Shown here piece after piece: positions 56,162 to 64,000 of a stretch of DNA of 64,000 bases; positions within the stretch are counted from its first letter, which is position 1, and each line of letters begins with the position of its first letter. The notes under the pieces are model-generated. The model was not told where the DNA came from. It ran no database searches and saw only the letters and a program-made list of their open reading frames with translations. The stretch is from Psychrobacter jeotgali (lineage in GTDB: Bacteria > Pseudomonadota > Gammaproteobacteria > Pseudomonadales > Moraxellaceae): positions 1,612,001-1,676,000 of the forward strand of contig NZ_CAJHAF010000001.1 in the NCBI RefSeq assembly GCF_904846315.1. The letters run 5' to 3'. The translations under genes and the position numbers were made by a program.

Positions 56162-58876
56162 TTATTGATGTTCATAAGATGAAATTCCTTTCTTATTTAA
56201 CCAATCTTTTATATCTTTTGGAATCGGTGTATTAGAGTGTAGTTCATAAGTACCGCCGTTTTCATTTGCGATTCTTTTCCTAGCTCCCATATCCGATTTG
56301 AACTTTTCTAGACCTCGTGATTTAGAAGTAACATCTCTCCAATAGTTACCAGATTTTGCCTCATACCATCTATTTCCAAAAGCTCCGTCAAATTCTCTTC
56401 CACCTTTTGAAAAACTTTTGCTACCCCCATAACTAGAATGTAACCAATCCTCAAAATCTTTGCCGTTCAATCCCTTAGCTATCTCTCTCTTGCCACTCGG
56501 CTTATTACCCAAATCATCATCTATCTGATTGTTATTTGTGACTCTTGCTTTCTGCACGCTATCTTCTGCTGCTTTCTGTGCTTGTTTTAGGGTTTTATAC
56601 TTGTTAACAATTTTTCCGCCTATTTTTAAAGTGTATTCAGCCCCTTTTCCACCTACAGCTGATCCAACGATCATCACTGCACCTGCTTTAACAGAATTCA
56701 CCATCTCTTGGTCAGTAGCAACCCTGAAGTTGCTACTTGCGCCACAGCTATGACTACTAGTTGGAATACAAATAATAGTTTGACCCTTAGCATTTTTTCC
56801 AAAGACTGGCATATGAGGTAGCATCCAGTCAGGTACTACTTGCGTACTATTTGAACCATGATTTGGATCCTTGTTCCAATAGTTATCCTCAACTGCGACT
56901 AAAGCTGTTTCACCCGCGTTTACTGAATCAGTCACACTACCTGTAGTCGAGCCAATAACAACGCCTGTAAGACTGACAATACCTCTAATCGTATCTTTTT
57001 GTTCAGCGGTTAATTTATCAGTATCTTTGGTTTGGTATAAAAATTGAGAGATAAGAGGCGCAGTCGCTTCTCCGGCACTAGCAGATAATCCTCCTGTGAA
57101 TACATCATTACCAGTAGCATAACTAACAGCAGCACCTAGAATGCCATGCGCTAAGATATGAGCGGCACTACCTGGTTCTAATCTATTGCCGTTGTCATCT
57201 CTGTTATCTGCTCTATTATTTTTGAAATAATCTCCAATTTGACTGGCTATAAAGGGACTTGCCGCTTTGGCAGCATAGCCTATTGTTCCATTGCTGTTTG
57301 GTCCATATAAAGCACCAGATATGGCGTCAAATATTAGTCCTTGTGTTTGAAGCTTATCAGCTTGATTAACTAGGTTATCACGAGCAGTAATATTACCTAG
57401 TTTGTCTTGTTCTGCTGCTGTTTCTAATAGCTTTTGCTTTTTCTCTTCGATTTCATTTTTAATCTTACGCCGCTCTTGGTCGAAAGCTTGAGTAATCTCA
57501 ACCTGCGCCCCCAGCTCCTCATTAACTCTTGTTTCGTCGAACACATTCTCAAGCGCACCTGCATACTCAGCACGGTTGTCCGTTGTAATACCGCTGTTGC
57601 CTGCAATGCCGGTGATGCCCGCTTTGGTTGTACTGCTATCACTATCGCTATCGCTGCCATAGCCAAGCCCACTCATGCTAGGTTTTCTCTCTTTACCAGC
57701 ACTTAAACCAATAGAGATGGCATCGCCTTTATAACTGGTCGTGTTCTCAATGTCTTGAGTGACTATACCGCCTTTGCTGACGTAGTTATTACGTCCAGCT
57801 TGGAGGGCAGCATCAGTCGTGATAATCGCCCCGCCAATCAGCGTGGTTTTACCCTCAGTGGTGAGATCAAAGCCACCATCTCCTGTGAATATTCCAGACT
57901 GTTCACCAACCGCTTTATAATCCGCATTGATATCAGTCTTACCACCATTGAGTGATAGACTTGAGCCTACACCTTCTAAAGCGACATCAAGGGTAAAGCC
58001 TGCGTTCTTTTGATTGCTGTCATAAGTGGCCGTGTCTTGTAAGGACTCGATGTTAACGTTACCACCGATAGATCCTTGGGCACTACCCGTGTTAATGACG
58101 CCACCTTTGAGGTTGAGGTCATTACCAATGTCTAGGGTAGTGGTAGCACCCACGTTGATGTTGCTGTTGGCATAAGTCACTGAGTCGCTGTTGGCATAGC
58201 CTTTGCCACGGCTAGCACTGGCAGTAATGCCGACACCACTACCTGTTGAAGCATAACCTCCAATAGCGGCACTTGAGCTTGAGTTCGTGCTGCGGGTATT
58301 ACTGTTTTGTGCCACACCACTGACGTTGAAATCATTGTCCGCTTGGAATAGGGCATTATTGGTGACATTAATGTTACTGCCATTAATATTGATATTACTA
58401 TCTTTGCCAGCGCCGGTTGCGATAAGCGCTAGGTTGTTAGTATTAATATTTGAGCCTTGGTTGACCTCAGTGTAGCTACTGCTATTAGATTGGCTCTTTT
58501 GCGAGCCGATGGTGGCTTGTATTCGGGTGTTGCCTAAACCTTTCAGGCTACCTGCATTGACACCGCTAGCTAGACCTTTTGCAGCACTAGCAGCCTCTTT
58601 AGCTAGTGATCTGGTCTTAAGAGCGCCTGCTACTGCGGCCATTCCTTTCATGCGTACGCTATCAGTATTACCACCAGCATCAACCAAACTATCGATATCT
58701 TTGGCACTGTCAATTAAGCTGTTGGAAACAGAGACGGTCAGACCGCTTTGCTTGAACTTACTCTCGCTTTGGTTAGTGTAGACATTTAGGGCATTATCGA
58801 TGTTAATCTTTTTGGCACGTACCACAGTATTGCCACGGTTAGCGTCATTACTGTCTAAGCTACTGTCATTGCCCAT
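56162..58876 (-). CDS. Orphan CdiA C-terminal module 2 with predicted nuclease toxin
   Basis: A 904-residue frame that starts in mid-protein; in-frame CdiA sequence continues upstream to about 58999, without signal peptide. FHA-like repeats (GNTRIQATIGSQKS, NSDSVTYANSNINVG, GLGYGSDSDSDSS) are followed by a Glu/Lys-rich coiled stretch (ERRKIKNEIEEKKQKLLE), hydrophobic pretoxin sequence and a VENN-like VEDNYW. The last ~110 residues form the toxin: GREFDGAFGNRWYEAKSGNYW, whose Glu...Asp...Glu-x-Lys arrangement fits a PD-(D/E)xK nuclease, and a closing NTPIPKDIKDWLNKKGI. Its immunity gene follows at once. Probably a silent cassette. Confidence 0.78.
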   Translation of the reverse strand: MGNDSSLDSNDANRGNTVVRAKKINIDNALNVYTNQSESKFKQSGLTVSVSNSLIDSAKDIDSLVDAGGNTDSVRMKGMAAVAGALKTRSLAKEAASAAKGLASGVNAGSLKGLGNTRIQATIGSQKSQSNSSSYTEVNQGSNINTNNLALIATGAGKDSNININGSNINVTNNALFQADNDFNVSGVAQNSNTRSTNSSSSAAIGGYASTGSGVGITASASRGKGYANSDSVTYANSNINVGATTTLDIGNDLNLKGGVINTGSAQGSIGGNVNIESLQDTATYDSNQKNAGFTLDVALEGVGSSLSLNGGKTDINADYKAVGEQSGIFTGDGGFDLTTEGKTTLIGGAIITTDAALQAGRNNYVSKGGIVTQDIENTTSYKGDAISIGLSAGKERKPSMSGLGYGSDSDSDSSTTKAGITGIAGNSGITTDNRAEYAGALENVFDETRVNEELGAQVEITQAFDQERRKIKNEIEEKKQKLLETAAEQDKLGNITARDNLVNQADKLQTQGLIFDAISGALYGPNSNGTIGYAAKAASPFIASQIGDYFKNNRADNRDDNGNRLEPGSAAHILAHGILGAAVSYATGNDVFTGGLSASAGEATAPLISQFLYQTKDTDKLTAEQKDTIRGIVSLTGVVIGSTTGSVTDSVNAGETALVAVEDNYWNKDPNHGSNSTQVVPDWMLPHMPVFGKNAKGQTIICIPTSSHSCGASSNFRVATDQEMVNSVKAGAVMIVGSAVGGKGAEYTLKIGGKIVNKYKTLKQAQKAAEDSVQKARVTNNNQIDDDLGNKPSGKREIAKGLNGKDFEDWLHSSYGGSKSFSKGGREFDGAFGNRWYEAKSGNYWRDVTSKSRGLEKFKSDMGARKRIANENGGTYELHSNTPIPKDIKDWLNKKGISSYEHQ

Positions 58877-58991: not shown

Positions 58992-59205
58992 CGGTTTGAT
59001 AAAGAACAAAAATATAAGAAGCATGGCCTCGATATTTGAGTTCTTTAATGAGCTGGAAATATGCGGAGCAGGGATTATTAGTCTTTAATAGTTAGCTTCG
59101 TGCCTCGTCCCTCAGCAGGGGCAGATATAGTTTTGTATTTGGGCAGTGCTCTGCTATTTTATATTTTAAGATGTTGGGAGTCGCAAGCTCCTCCCAGCCT
59201 ATGCG
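58992..59205. repeat. Spacer duplicated upstream of two orphan modules (copy 2) with diverged hairpin
   Basis: Counterpart of 55475-55696: both begin GCGGTTT(A/G)A(C/T)AAAGAACAAAAA and contain GTGCCTCGTCCCTC. Here the hairpin reads TTGGGAGTCGCAAGCTCCTCCCAGCC (abbreviated), a diverged version of the 51-bp unit. It separates module 2 from the genes at 59222 and beyond. Confidence 0.6.
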
Positions 59206-59506: not shown

Positions 59507-59733
59507 ATATATCTTCTCATTATTTATATAAATGACCCCATCATTGATATTAAAATTTGAAAAAATAATTTTTATAACCTTTTTGTATTTTTAAATGAAG
59601 ATTCAGGTAAACGTTCTAAAAGTTCGGAAACCCTCCAGACATATGCACTATCTAGACTACAAACTATCTATATAAATCTTAGTTTCTTAATATAAGTGGA
59701 GATATTCTCAATAAAAGAAACAATATAATTTTT

Positions 59734-59946
59734 TTATATACTATTATTAACTACAATAATTTCATTCCAAGTAGGACTTAGTCCTTTACTAATCATATAT
59801 GTTCCAAAATCAACAAAAAGAGCATTTCCAATATCAATGACCTTAAACCACATTGCATCACATTCATCGCATAAAAATGTTTCAGCTTGTAGTTTATTAA
59901 TCAAAACTTTAAAGATTTCACCTTGATTACAACGTGGGCAGATCAT
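59734..59946 (-). CDS. Small zinc-ribbon protein, function unknown
   Basis: A 70-residue protein with two CxxC pairs, CPRC at residues 3-6 and CDEC at residues 26-29, which should hold a zinc ion. The rest (AMWFKVIDIGNALFVDFGTYMISKGLSPTW) is a short mixed domain. Proteins of this shape occur as orphans beside polymorphic toxin genes. I cannot say whether it is an immunity protein or a regulator. AGGTG precedes the ATG. Confidence 0.5.
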   Translation of the reverse strand: MICPRCNQGEIFKVLINKLQAETFLCDECDAMWFKVIDIGNALFVDFGTYMISKGLSPTWNEIIVVNNSI

Positions 59947-59992
59947 ATTTCACCTCATGGAATGGGATAAGCAGTAATAATTTGATTAGTTC

Positions 59993-60885
59993 GGTAACCC
60001 TCCCAACCATAAGACACCTAATAAATAGAATTAAGCTGCCTGATTAAGTTTCTGTATTGGCGTAAAACCGCCATTGCCCATATTAGGTCGTTCATGATTA
60101 TAGTGGTATAACCAGTTTTCTGCTTGTGCGCGTACCTGTTCTAGGTTATCAAACAGCTCCTGATTTAACCAATCATATCTCATCGTTCTGTTAAAGCGCT
60201 CTACATAAGCATTTTGCTGTGGATTGCCAGGCTCAATATAACTAATAGTGATGCCTTGCTGATCGGCCCAATCTTTGAGCGCATGACTGATGTATTCAGG
60301 GCCATTATCGCATCTTATTTGCACAGGTTTACCTCGGTACTCAATCAACTGGTTCAAGCTACGTATAACCCTCCTAGCCGGTAGCGAGAAGTCACGTTTG
60401 CCCCAGACATAAGCCACAATCTCATTAGTAGCACGGTCATAAGCATAAATAAGCCAGACTTTACGCTTCTTGCGGTACACGTAAGTCCAGAACTCATCAA
60501 CCTCTAAGCGTTCATAGTAGCGCTTTTTAGGTGTAATCTTATAGACCGATGAGTCTATGGTGCTAAGGACTTTACCAATGCTAACTGAGGCTATCAGGGC
60601 AATGTCTCTAACACCACATCCCCTAACCGTCATTAGCCGTATCTTTTCTTCTATTTTAGAATGGCAGCCTTGGTAGGTTAAAGCATGGTCGCCAATGAAT
60701 TGACGCTTACAGTCTTTACATTGGTAATTCTGCTTGCCATAGCTTTTTATACCGTTTTTCTTTAAACTAGGACTGTGACAGTCGGGGCAGATAATTTCTA
60801 TTTGTGTCTTCATAACCTCAAATATATCATCTTGCTTCGGCTGTCACCCTCCTTTATTCCTCAGCATACTTTCTGATACACCACC
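59993..60885 (-). mobile_element. Insertion sequence with unlike ends and a chimeric transposase
   Basis: The right boundary is set by the start of the 51-bp repeat at 60886, identical to its copy at 55646. The minus-strand left end therefore reads GGTGGTGTATCAGAAAG, in an IS1-like arrangement with the transposase start about 70 bp in. The other end, read inward from 59993, is GGTAACCCTCCCAACCATAAG and does not match as an inverted repeat beyond GGT. A clear target duplication was not found. Boundaries are therefore provisional on the left. Confidence 0.55.
60031..60813 (-). CDS. Chimeric transposase: IS1-type N-terminus, IS3-type C-terminus
   Basis: A 260-residue protein. Residues 1-141 match IS1 InsA/InsB: a zinc ribbon (Cys 9, 12, 32, 35), a helix-turn-helix and LEVDEFWTYVYRKKRKVWLIYAYD ... 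AYVWGKRD. Residues 142-260 match the second half of IS3-family OrfB integrase domains: FSLPARRVIRSLNQLIEYRGKP, IRCDNGPEYISHAL, NPQQNAYVERFNRT and YNHERPNMGNGG. The joint falls at 60388-60393. Asp106 comes from the IS1 part; Asp169 and Glu205 come from the IS3 part, with 35 residues between the last two. Whether it is active cannot be seen. Confidence 0.8.
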   Translation of the reverse strand: MKTQIEIICPDCHSPSLKKNGIKSYGKQNYQCKDCKRQFIGDHALTYQGCHSKIEEKIRLMTVRGCGVRDIALIASVSIGKVLSTIDSSVYKITPKKRYYERLEVDEFWTYVYRKKRKVWLIYAYDRATNEIVAYVWGKRDFSLPARRVIRSLNQLIEYRGKPVQIRCDNGPEYISHALKDWADQQGITISYIEPGNPQQNAYVERFNRTMRYDWLNQELFDNLEQVRAQAENWLYHYNHERPNMGNGGFTPIQKLNQAA

Positions 60886-60936
60886 TTTAATTTAAAAAGA
60901 TGCTGGGTGTCGCTAGCTCCACCCAGCCTACGCGCT
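60886..60936. repeat. 51-bp GCTGGGTG hairpin repeat, copy B
   Basis: Identical over all 51 bases to 55646-55696, including the hairpin now at 60902-60927. It directly abuts the insertion sequence on one side and a CdiA fragment on the other. Confidence 0.75.
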
Positions 60937-61449: not shown

Positions 61450-64000
61450 TTAATTAATAATAGTTATAACTCTCTTTTTGTCTGGACTTAATATTACTTC
61501 GACATCTCCAGATGTATGTTTCCAGTTTCCATTGTTTTGTTTAATTGGTTTAGAGTTGTTAATTACAGCTTCAACGTTATTAGGTGAAATAGATCTTCCA
61601 CGGATCATTTCTCTTCCATCATAATTTAAAATTCCTGGCTCCATACCTTTAGTGCCAGTATTGTAGCGTAGTCCTTCTTCAGATGAAATTCCCGATGAAT
61701 ATCTTTGATTACTAGGTTGCATTCTTCCTACTGCATGACTTGAATAATACCTGTCTCCTATTAGTGCAAAATCTTGCGGACCCTTTGGAGTTTCGAAAGA
61801 TTTTTTAGGATAAGAAGACCACGTGCCCCACGGTAGAGTATTTTTAGTAGCTCCCTTAACAGCACTACTCTTAGCAATATTGGTAACTGTTTTAGCAGCT
61901 CCATATCCTAAGAGTGCATAGTCCTCAGGATGTACCGGTGTTATAGCACCAGAACCTACATTAGCCACCTGACTAGCAGCAGCTTTAGTTTGTGAGTCCA
62001 ACGCAGTACCAAGATTTCTTCTTGGATCATTACTCCGTAAGGATGTACCACCGTTTGGCGGTGAAGGCGGATAAGTATTTGTTAATAAAGTATTATAATT
62101 ATACTGATTACTATCAGCATTTAAGAAACCAATGTCATTACCTTTATTGTCAGTAAGTCTATTTCCTTTATTGTCTTTTAAGTAAACTGACCCTTTTGCA
62201 TTGTTAGACATCTCATTGATTATAGATTCAGCTTTTTGGTAGTCTGCAAGGTAAGCGTTTCCAAGTTCAGCGCCTAGTTGACTTGATGCATCAATTCCAT
62301 TATTTATTCCCTGTTTATATTGATTAAACTTGTTGTTACCTTGGGCATCTACTTTAGCATAAGCTGCACCGTACAGAAGATTTAACCAGTATTCTTCTGT
62401 ATCTTTATCTCCTTTGGCTAATATTTTTGCACGTTGTTTGAGTTGACTAATCTCACTCGGATGCAACTGCCTATTGTTAGCATCGACATTCACTCCAGTT
62501 GCTGTACTCGACGTATCAAGCCCAGCTGCACTGCCAGCACCTAGTAATGCCAGACTAACCACACCACTTGCAGCGCCTTCGGCAATGTCTGCACTCATAC
62601 CTTTATCGACAAGTGCTTTAGCTAGTTTGGTTTGTACCTCATTAAGCGTTGGCGCAGCGGCAGCAACGCCGCCTGTCGTTAGTGCACCCTCAACACTGCC
62701 AGTGGCTAGTGCTCCAAGTGCGGTGTGTGCCGCGACTCGGTAAATACCGCCTTCATCCCATTTGGCAATTGCTGCGTTTTTCTCGGCATCACTAAGAGTG
62801 GCGTCAGCTCTAATGGCTTTAATACGATTATTAGCAAAGTCCCCAACCGCCTTTGGCGCCTCTTTACCAAACTCTTTAGTGATTATCGTCTGTGCCCCAA
62901 GCTCTTCATTCACTCGACTGGCATCAAATACACTCTCAAGCTTACCGCCAAGAGTTTCACGATTCTCAGTGGTAAGAATGCCCTCTGGATCATTGTAACC
63001 ACTGACGCCGCCTTTAGTGATACTGCTATCGCTATCACTATCAGTACCGTAGCCAAGCCCACTCATAGTCGCTTGTGGTTTGTCTTTGATCTTACCAGCA
63101 CTTAAGCCAACAGAGATCGCATCGCCCTCATAGCTTGTGGTATTGTTAATGTCTTGTGAGGTCACGCCTTGTTTAAAGACGATGTTGCTCTTACCATTGG
63201 CTTGGGCATCCGCTGAAGTGGTGAACACGCCACCGATGAAGTTGCCTTTGCCTTCGGTTACGAGGTCGGCTTCATTGGCAAAGATGCCAGATTGTTCGCC
63301 TACCGCTTTATAATCTGCGTTGATGTCGGTTTTGCCGCCATTGAGTGAAAGACTCGAGCCTGCACCTTCTAAAGCGACATCAAGGGTAAAGCCTGCATTC
63401 TTCTGCTTGCTGTCATAGGCTGCCGTGTCCTGTAGCGATTCGATGTTGACATCACCGCCTATCGCGCCTTGGATCTTGTCTGTGTTAAGTATCCCGCCTT
63501 TGAGGTTGAGGTCATTGCCAATATCTAGGGTAGTGGTATTACCAACGTTGATGTTGCTATTGGCATAAGTCACTGAGTCGCTATTGGCATAGCCTTTACC
63601 TTTGCCAGCATTAGCGGTAATACCAAAGCCGTTACCTGTAGACGCGTAACCGCCAATAGCCGCGTTTGAGCTTTTGTTAGTGCTGCGCGTTTGACTATTT
63701 TGTGCCACGCCACTGACATTGAAGTCATTGTCCGCTTGGAATAGGGCGTTATTAGTAACATCAAGATTACTGCCGTTGATGTCGATGTTGCTATCTGCCC
63801 CAGCACCAGTAGCAATCAGTGCTAGGTTGTTAGTAGTGATGCTTGAGCCTTGGTTGACCTCAGTGTAGCTACTGCTATTAGATTGAGACTTCTGACTACC
63901 GATGGTGGCTTGAATACGCGTGTTGCCAACGCCTTTGAGGTCGCCATCGAGTAAATCATATCCTGCACTGTTCGCTTGTTTAGCCAATGCTTTGGTTTTA
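61450..64000 (-). CDS. cdiA: CdiA-like contact-dependent inhibition exoprotein, C-terminal part (N-terminus beyond window)
   Basis: The frame is open to the right edge, so the secretion domain and most FHA repeats lie outside. Visible are the FHA-type region (LALIATGAGADSNIDINGSN, NSDSVTYANSNINVG, IGGDVNIESLQDTAAYD), a pretoxin region with GVVSLALLGAGSAAGLDTSS and NNRQLHPSEISQL (VENN-type boundary), then a variable part. The last ~100 residues, YYSSHAVGRMQPSN ... RGRSISPNNVEAVINNSKP ... VEVILSPDKKRVITII, resemble the DUF4258/BrnT-like RNase fold with its HA-xx-RM and RxIS-xx-V motifs. CdiA is presented on the cell surface and delivers its C-terminus into neighbouring cells. Whether this is the full-length gene or another orphan module cannot be decided here. 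Confidence 0.8.
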   Translation of the reverse strand, partial: KTKALAKQANSAGYDLLDGDLKGVGNTRIQATIGSQKSQSNSSSYTEVNQGSSITTNNLALIATGAGADSNIDINGSNLDVTNNALFQADNDFNVSGVAQNSQTRSTNKSSNAAIGGYASTGNGFGITANAGKGKGYANSDSVTYANSNINVGNTTTLDIGNDLNLKGGILNTDKIQGAIGGDVNIESLQDTAAYDSKQKNAGFTLDVALEGAGSSLSLNGGKTDINADYKAVGEQSGIFANEADLVTEGKGNFIGGVFTTSADAQANGKSNIVFKQGVTSQDINNTTSYEGDAISVGLSAGKIKDKPQATMSGLGYGTDSDSDSSITKGGVSGYNDPEGILTTENRETLGGKLESVFDASRVNEELGAQTIITKEFGKEAPKAVGDFANNRIKAIRADATLSDAEKNAAIAKWDEGGIYRVAAHTALGALATGSVEGALTTGGVAAAAPTLNEVQTKLAKALVDKGMSADIAEGAASGVVSLALLGAGSAAGLDTSSTATGVNVDANNRQLHPSEISQLKQRAKILAKGDKDTEEYWLNLLYGAAYAKVDAQGNNKFNQYKQGINNGIDASSQLGAELGNAYLADYQKAESIINEMSNNAKGSVYLKDNKGNRLTDNKGNDIGFLNADSNQYNYNTLLTNTYPPSPPNGGTSLRSNDPRRNLGTALDSQTKAAASQVANVGSGAITPVHPEDYALLGYGAAKTVTNIAKSSAVKGATKNTLPWGTWSSYPKKSFETPKGPQDFALIGDRYYSSHAVGRMQPSNQRYSSGISSEEGLRYNTGTKGMEPGILNYDGREMIRGRSISPNNVEAVINNSKPIKQNNGNWKHTSGDVEVILSPDKKRVITIIN

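Follow-up and report, generated by a model that had tools for sequence, protein, structure and literature searches.

The window analysed here, a stretch of 64,000 nucleotides of Psychrobacter jeotgali DNA, contains a 260-aa ORF with an ATG start at 60813-60031 on the minus strand, as given in the window's ORF list. In BLASTN comparisons with relatives, nucleotide identity to IS1 was found over 60885-60389 and to IS3 over 60394-59993, the two matches overlapping in the six bases TGACTT, and no IS3 identity was detected upstream of 60394. The features of the hybrid are listed below, the sizes of intact relatives (IS1, about 803 bp; IS3, about 1199 bp) serving as reference.

60861..60885, minus strand: IS1 left terminal repeat GGTGGTGTATCAGAAAGTATGCTGA, intact, with its outermost base at 60885; like the ends of intact IS1 copies
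60389..60885, minus strand: left 497 bp of an IS1-family element with a full length of about 803 bp; from nucleotide identity to IS1 loci
60031..60813, minus strand: hybrid transposase ORF, IS1 residues 1-141 plus IS3 residues 142-260; from the ORF list, Pfam and NCBIfam
60389..60394, minus strand: joint, the six-base word TGACTT common to IS1 (L010-type allele) and IS3; from sequence comparison
59993..60394, minus strand: right part of an IS3-family (ISPar2-like) element, 402 bp of about 1199; from identity to IS3 copies of the same genome

The hybrid is situated among small ORFs between two large ORFs, each encoding a Fil_haemagg_2 domain (56162-58876 and 61450-63987, both on the minus strand), which share stretches 81-83% identical in DNA; the surroundings look like a filamentous-haemagglutinin tail array. 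A 70-aa ORF with two CxxC pairs at 59734-59946 (minus strand) gave no Pfam match at an E value of 0.01. A 16-base repeat with one mismatch is present at 59621-59636 (AGTTCGGAAACCCTCC) and 59988-60003 (AGTTCGGTAACCCTCC). The latter copy consists of the IS3 right end and five flanking bases, and the former, which adjoins the same GAACT flank, may thus be a further IS3-type end that has become worn. At 60902-60927 there is an imperfect palindrome whose arms are 13 bases long (GCTGGGTGTCGCTAGCTCCACCCAGC); it is similar to a stretch at about 59175-59199 (TGGGAGTCGCAAGCTCCTCCCAGCC), and the two are possibly a dispersed small repeat.

The two element parts and their joint

Of the 26 IS1 loci compared (L009-L034), 25 were 82-91% identical to the IS1 part at the nucleotide level and the remaining one, L034, was 79% identical; the best match reached 92% over 60395-60885. 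Intact IS1 copies with the same kind of end in related genomes have a length of 799-811 bp. The IS3 part was 90.3% identical to four IS3 copies of the same genome, and its right end (...TTGGGAGGGTTACC) is intact and terminates at 59993. Within the window and allowing up to 3 mismatches, neither a second 25-base IS1 end nor an IS3 left end was found, the IS3 element being represented by its right end only.

The word TGACTT comprises the last base of codon 140, all of codon 141, and the first two bases of codon 142. At the corresponding position, IS1 copies of related genomes contain CGTGACTT, CGTGACCT or CGTGATTT and the IS3 copies of the same genome contain GTTGACTTC, giving a shared word of 3 to 6 bases that varies with the IS1 allele. 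The joint can be located only to within up to six bases, because TGACTT occurs both in some IS1 copies and in the IS3 of this genome. The first-pass annotation had placed the joint exactly after the motif GKRD; it can in fact be set anywhere within TGACTT (60394-60389), and other IS1 alleles share 3 or 4 bases.

Mis-assembly is common at IS copies, and the genome holds four other copies of IS3. The joining of two different IS copies by an assembly or sequencing artefact is nevertheless very improbable, as the IS3-derived half differs by about 10% from all four of these copies, the nearest IS1 found in the genome (L006) is only 68% identical to the IS1-derived half at the nucleotide level, and the contig has a length of 3.11 Mb in a 7-contig assembly with 100% completeness. 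Among up to 6 candidates scored per genome, no other place in the genome gave a close match to either half; one further IS3-end fragment comprised 79 bases with 79% identity. With no closely similar copy found that could have been mis-joined, the error at the joint that had earlier been named as a possible objection is unlikely, and an assembly chimera was rejected.

The hybrid transposase and its possible activity

The proposal that an IS1 N-terminal half is fused to an IS3 C-terminal half was borne out when the two halves were profiled separately. Residues 1-141 alone scored 134.0 bits with the NCBIfam IS1 transposase model NF033558 (cut-off, 100), the match spanning residues 9-141, whereas residues 142-260 alone scored 118.6 bits with the NCBIfam IS3 model NF033516, whose cut-off of 160 applies to whole proteins. 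The N-terminal half carries an InsA-type zinc ribbon and helix-turn-helix (NF050000, 49.9 bits; cut-off, 28) and matches Pfam DDE_Tnp_IS1; Pfam Zn_ribbon_InsA scored 24.4, slightly under its cut-off of 26.1, and HTH_Tnp_IS1 13.1, under its cut-off of 24.9. The IS1 DDE domain is incomplete, PF03400 covering only profile positions 6-45 of 131. The last 119 residues were contributed by the ISPar2-like IS3 element and matched Pfam rve_3 with 89.6 bits and rve with 44.0 bits. The layout of IS3 with OrfA and OrfB in two frames connected by a frameshift is absent, as the hybrid is read in a single frame.

A full-length match to one IS family, which would speak against a fusion, was obtained in part: with the whole ORF, NF033558 scored 140.1 bits against the cut-off of 100 and its alignment extended over residues 9-209, yet the C-terminal half accounted for just 6 of the 140 bits. 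As the IS1 model passes its cut-off, routine annotation would probably label the ORF an intact "IS1 family transposase." The hybrid is mainly a caution in this respect, since half of such a call is another family.

The residues Asp106, Asp169, and Glu205 that had been pointed out in the fused protein are all present, the first being derived from IS1 and the other two from IS3; we take them to be the catalytic residues of these families. Of the spacings reported with them, the 35 residues between Asp169 and Glu205 proved correct, whereas 62 rather than 63 residues lie between Asp106 and Asp169, 63 being the difference in numbering. The assertion that the spacing is close to that of IS3 enzymes held, with a distance from the first to the second Asp of 63 in the hybrid versus 59 in the IS3 parent.

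These properties raise the question of a working hybrid transposase that has an IS1 DNA-binding part and a mixed IS1/IS3 core, acts in trans, and was kept for its function. We consider this quite unlikely. The frame is intact, the in-frame joint falls where the folds of the two enzymes correspond, the three residues are retained, and the rve profile matches residues 102-198 with its positions 7-102 of 102 (60.8 bits). In two AlphaFold2 models, strands and helices follow each other as in an RNase H core and the joint is placed between the third strand and the next helix, but the quality of the models is low (mean pLDDT, 53.6 and 58.2; pTM, 0.31 and 0.40). Because the joint (residues 138-145) and the stretch with Glu205 (residues 194-221) fall below a pLDDT of 50 in the better model, the geometry of the triad is not established by them. 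Retroviral integrases were matched both by Foldseek (best E value, 1.5e-9), albeit with TM-scores of about 0.3, and by a PDB sequence search (best E value, 3.4e-6 over residues 113-212). Further points against a functional enzyme are the single copy, the mismatched ends, and the finding that L006, with its low identity, was the closest IS1 found elsewhere in the genome. There is only a slim chance that a cross-over between IS1 and IS3 at an equivalent RNase H point gave a foldable and perhaps active enzyme. If it did, domain shuffling between transposase families would have been caught at its first step, and an active hybrid would be a natural example, with a precise joint, of DDE transposases exchanging DNA-binding and catalytic parts.

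An excess of synonymous changes in the C-terminal half also bears on a possible function. Compared with 22 distinct relatives, private changes in the N-terminal half were confined to 3 sites in 420 bases (1 synonymous, 2 non-synonymous). Of the private changes in the C-terminal half, 14 were synonymous and 4 non-synonymous, a synonymous excess with P of about 1.5e-6, in a comparison in which the 12 nearest loci represent 6 distinct rows, against 22 distinct rows for the N-terminal half; the smaller number of rows inflates the private count of the C-terminal half. The excess could reflect selection on the hybrid. More likely it reflects an unsampled IS3 parent, a soft reading given 6 versus 22 rows. 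As an old fusion should give both halves similar counts, most of the 18 changes in the C-terminal half probably predate the fusion, and the intact frame may simply reflect a young fusion.

Further joined loci and mobility of the hybrid

The first-pass annotation had proposed that several loci with the same fusion would indicate a mobile chimeric element and a single locus a local recombination product. Only the locus of the window was found, in line with the second alternative and not with the first. Among the matches listed, no joined locus was present in the 104 other genomes of the genus (105 including that of the window) or in the 298 other genomes of the family, where at most 8 candidates were scored per genome; the family sample of 299 genomes includes the 105 genus genomes. 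The genus and family matches were ordered by E value, and the joined gene ranked far above all others.

At the protein level, 120 of 7473 matches were listed, and PF03400 occurred in combination with PF00665 or PF13683 in only one of these 120, P0001. It is the window's own gene annotated with a later start, and no other joined protein was seen among these 120. Its cluster has 2 member sequences with one contig named, equal in length to that of the window, and these may include a second strain copy of the gene. A degenerate junction pattern gave 3 matches in a set of genome contigs, all in unrelated short frames of 31-55 residues. When plasmids were searched by megablast with 501 bases spanning the joint, one record was obtained, and it matched the IS3 half alone. 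The three relatives detected in viral contigs contained the IS1 half alone, the matches of L104 and L105 stopping at or next to the sequence end.

The plasmid protein search returned at least 5000 records, of which the best 40 rows were inspected; in at least 105 records one place covered at least 80% of the query. Within the best 40, six rows (H1 and H4-H8) reached this coverage. H5-H8 are single pieces with 45-50% identity, three annotated as IS1 family transposase and one as hypothetical protein, and such coverage is what distant relatedness along the DDE core would produce. The matches of H1 and H4 fall into two pieces, H1 consisting of an annotated IS1 transposase of 702 bases and a separate second piece, and H4 beginning in an ISAba14 IS3 transposase; at the level of annotation, neither contains a joined ORF. 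Judged from literature listings, a description of an IS1-IS3 fusion was not found.

The outer flanks of the hybrid are TTTTAAATTAAA and GAACTAATCAAA; they have no terminal match, and thus no target duplication is present. IS1 elements generate target duplications of 8-9 bp and IS3 elements of 3-5 bp. Among the relatives, 22 distinct intact IS1 loci had both flanks, and of these 12 showed an exact 8-bp duplication and 10 did not; a 4-bp duplication was present in seven of eight distinct single-span IS3 loci. These numbers were counted by hand after dropping repeats, as many of the loci L043-L102 repeat L001-L037; L015 was excluded from the IS1 count because it has no left flank, and L051, with a span of 2509 bases and a 4-bp duplication, from the IS3 count. 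A missing duplication alone is weak evidence, because 10 of the 22 intact IS1 loci also have none; stronger arguments against transposition as a unit are that the ends do not match and that a single locus was found.

Both outer ends of the hybrid are intact, as would be expected of a mobile chimeric insertion sequence in which the left end of IS1 and the right end of IS3 spread together. Such an element is extremely improbable here, as the two ends are dissimilar, a target duplication is absent, and one locus was seen among the matches listed in the protein, genus, and family searches. Judging from its anatomy, with ends derived from two different families, the hybrid should be unable to transpose like a standard IS. 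A mobile chimeric IS was rejected on the basis of the single locus and of the mismatched ends without duplication.

Origin of the hybrid and comparison with known families

The hybrid is very probably an IS remnant that was formed when an IS1 and an IS3 element were joined by deletion, or by an equivalent illegitimate recombination, within a few bases common to both. The two elements, one of the IS1 family and one ISPar2-like member of the IS3 family, would once have been located at this place in the same orientation. A microhomology deletion or an equivalent event could then have fused both within the shared word of 3-6 bases, with loss of the right part of IS1, of the left part of IS3, and of anything in between. 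The fusion would by chance have been in frame, and in both enzymes the cross-over would fall at roughly the same place in the RNase H fold, after the third strand and before the helix that follows it. The predicted product has the zinc ribbon, the helix-turn-helix, and the first catalytic strands of IS1, followed by the second and third catalytic residues of IS3; at most, this protein might bind to IS1-type ends through its IS1 domain. The scarcity of private changes in the N-terminal half agrees with this reading. A deletion is supported by the finding that the outer end of each parent was kept and that each opposite end is missing from the window within 3 mismatches. We infer this deletion, as the preceding arrangement with an intact IS1 adjoining an intact IS3 at this place was not seen.

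A comparison of IS1 L010 with IS3 L002 revealed 241 maximal shared words of at least 6 bases, of which 132 are located inside both ORFs and 76 are in frame. Only two of the 241 keep the first Asp of IS1 and the second Asp of IS3 at a spacing of 55-65, and the actual joint is one of these two. Pure chance would seldom produce a joint as favourable as this one, the probability being about one in a hundred as reckoned post hoc; a fusion that comes to attention through the length of its frame is necessarily a lucky case. We conclude that the hybrid is a real, apparently solitary, and probably inert remnant of what looks like a single event rather than a mobile chimera, and that it belongs to a known kind, the recombined IS fragment.

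Among known elements, the IS1 single-ORF group represented by the Psychrobacter copies shares with the hybrid residues 1-141, the upstream region, and the left terminal repeat (79-92% nucleotide identity), and ISPa14 of the IS1 family is a more distant relative with about 63% amino acid identity. Compared with IS1, the hybrid lacks the C-terminal 92 of 233 residues (the length of the L010 copy), the second and third catalytic residues of IS1, the right terminal repeat, and the 8-bp target duplication. Of IS3, the hybrid is missing OrfA, the beginning of OrfB including the first catalytic Asp, and the left end, and the target duplication of 4 bp is also absent. From the ISPar2-like IS3 element, a family after which the matching Psychrobacter arcticus protein P0053 is named, the hybrid keeps the last 119 residues, the stop codon, the 3′ non-coding stretch, and the right end, with 90.3% nucleotide identity.
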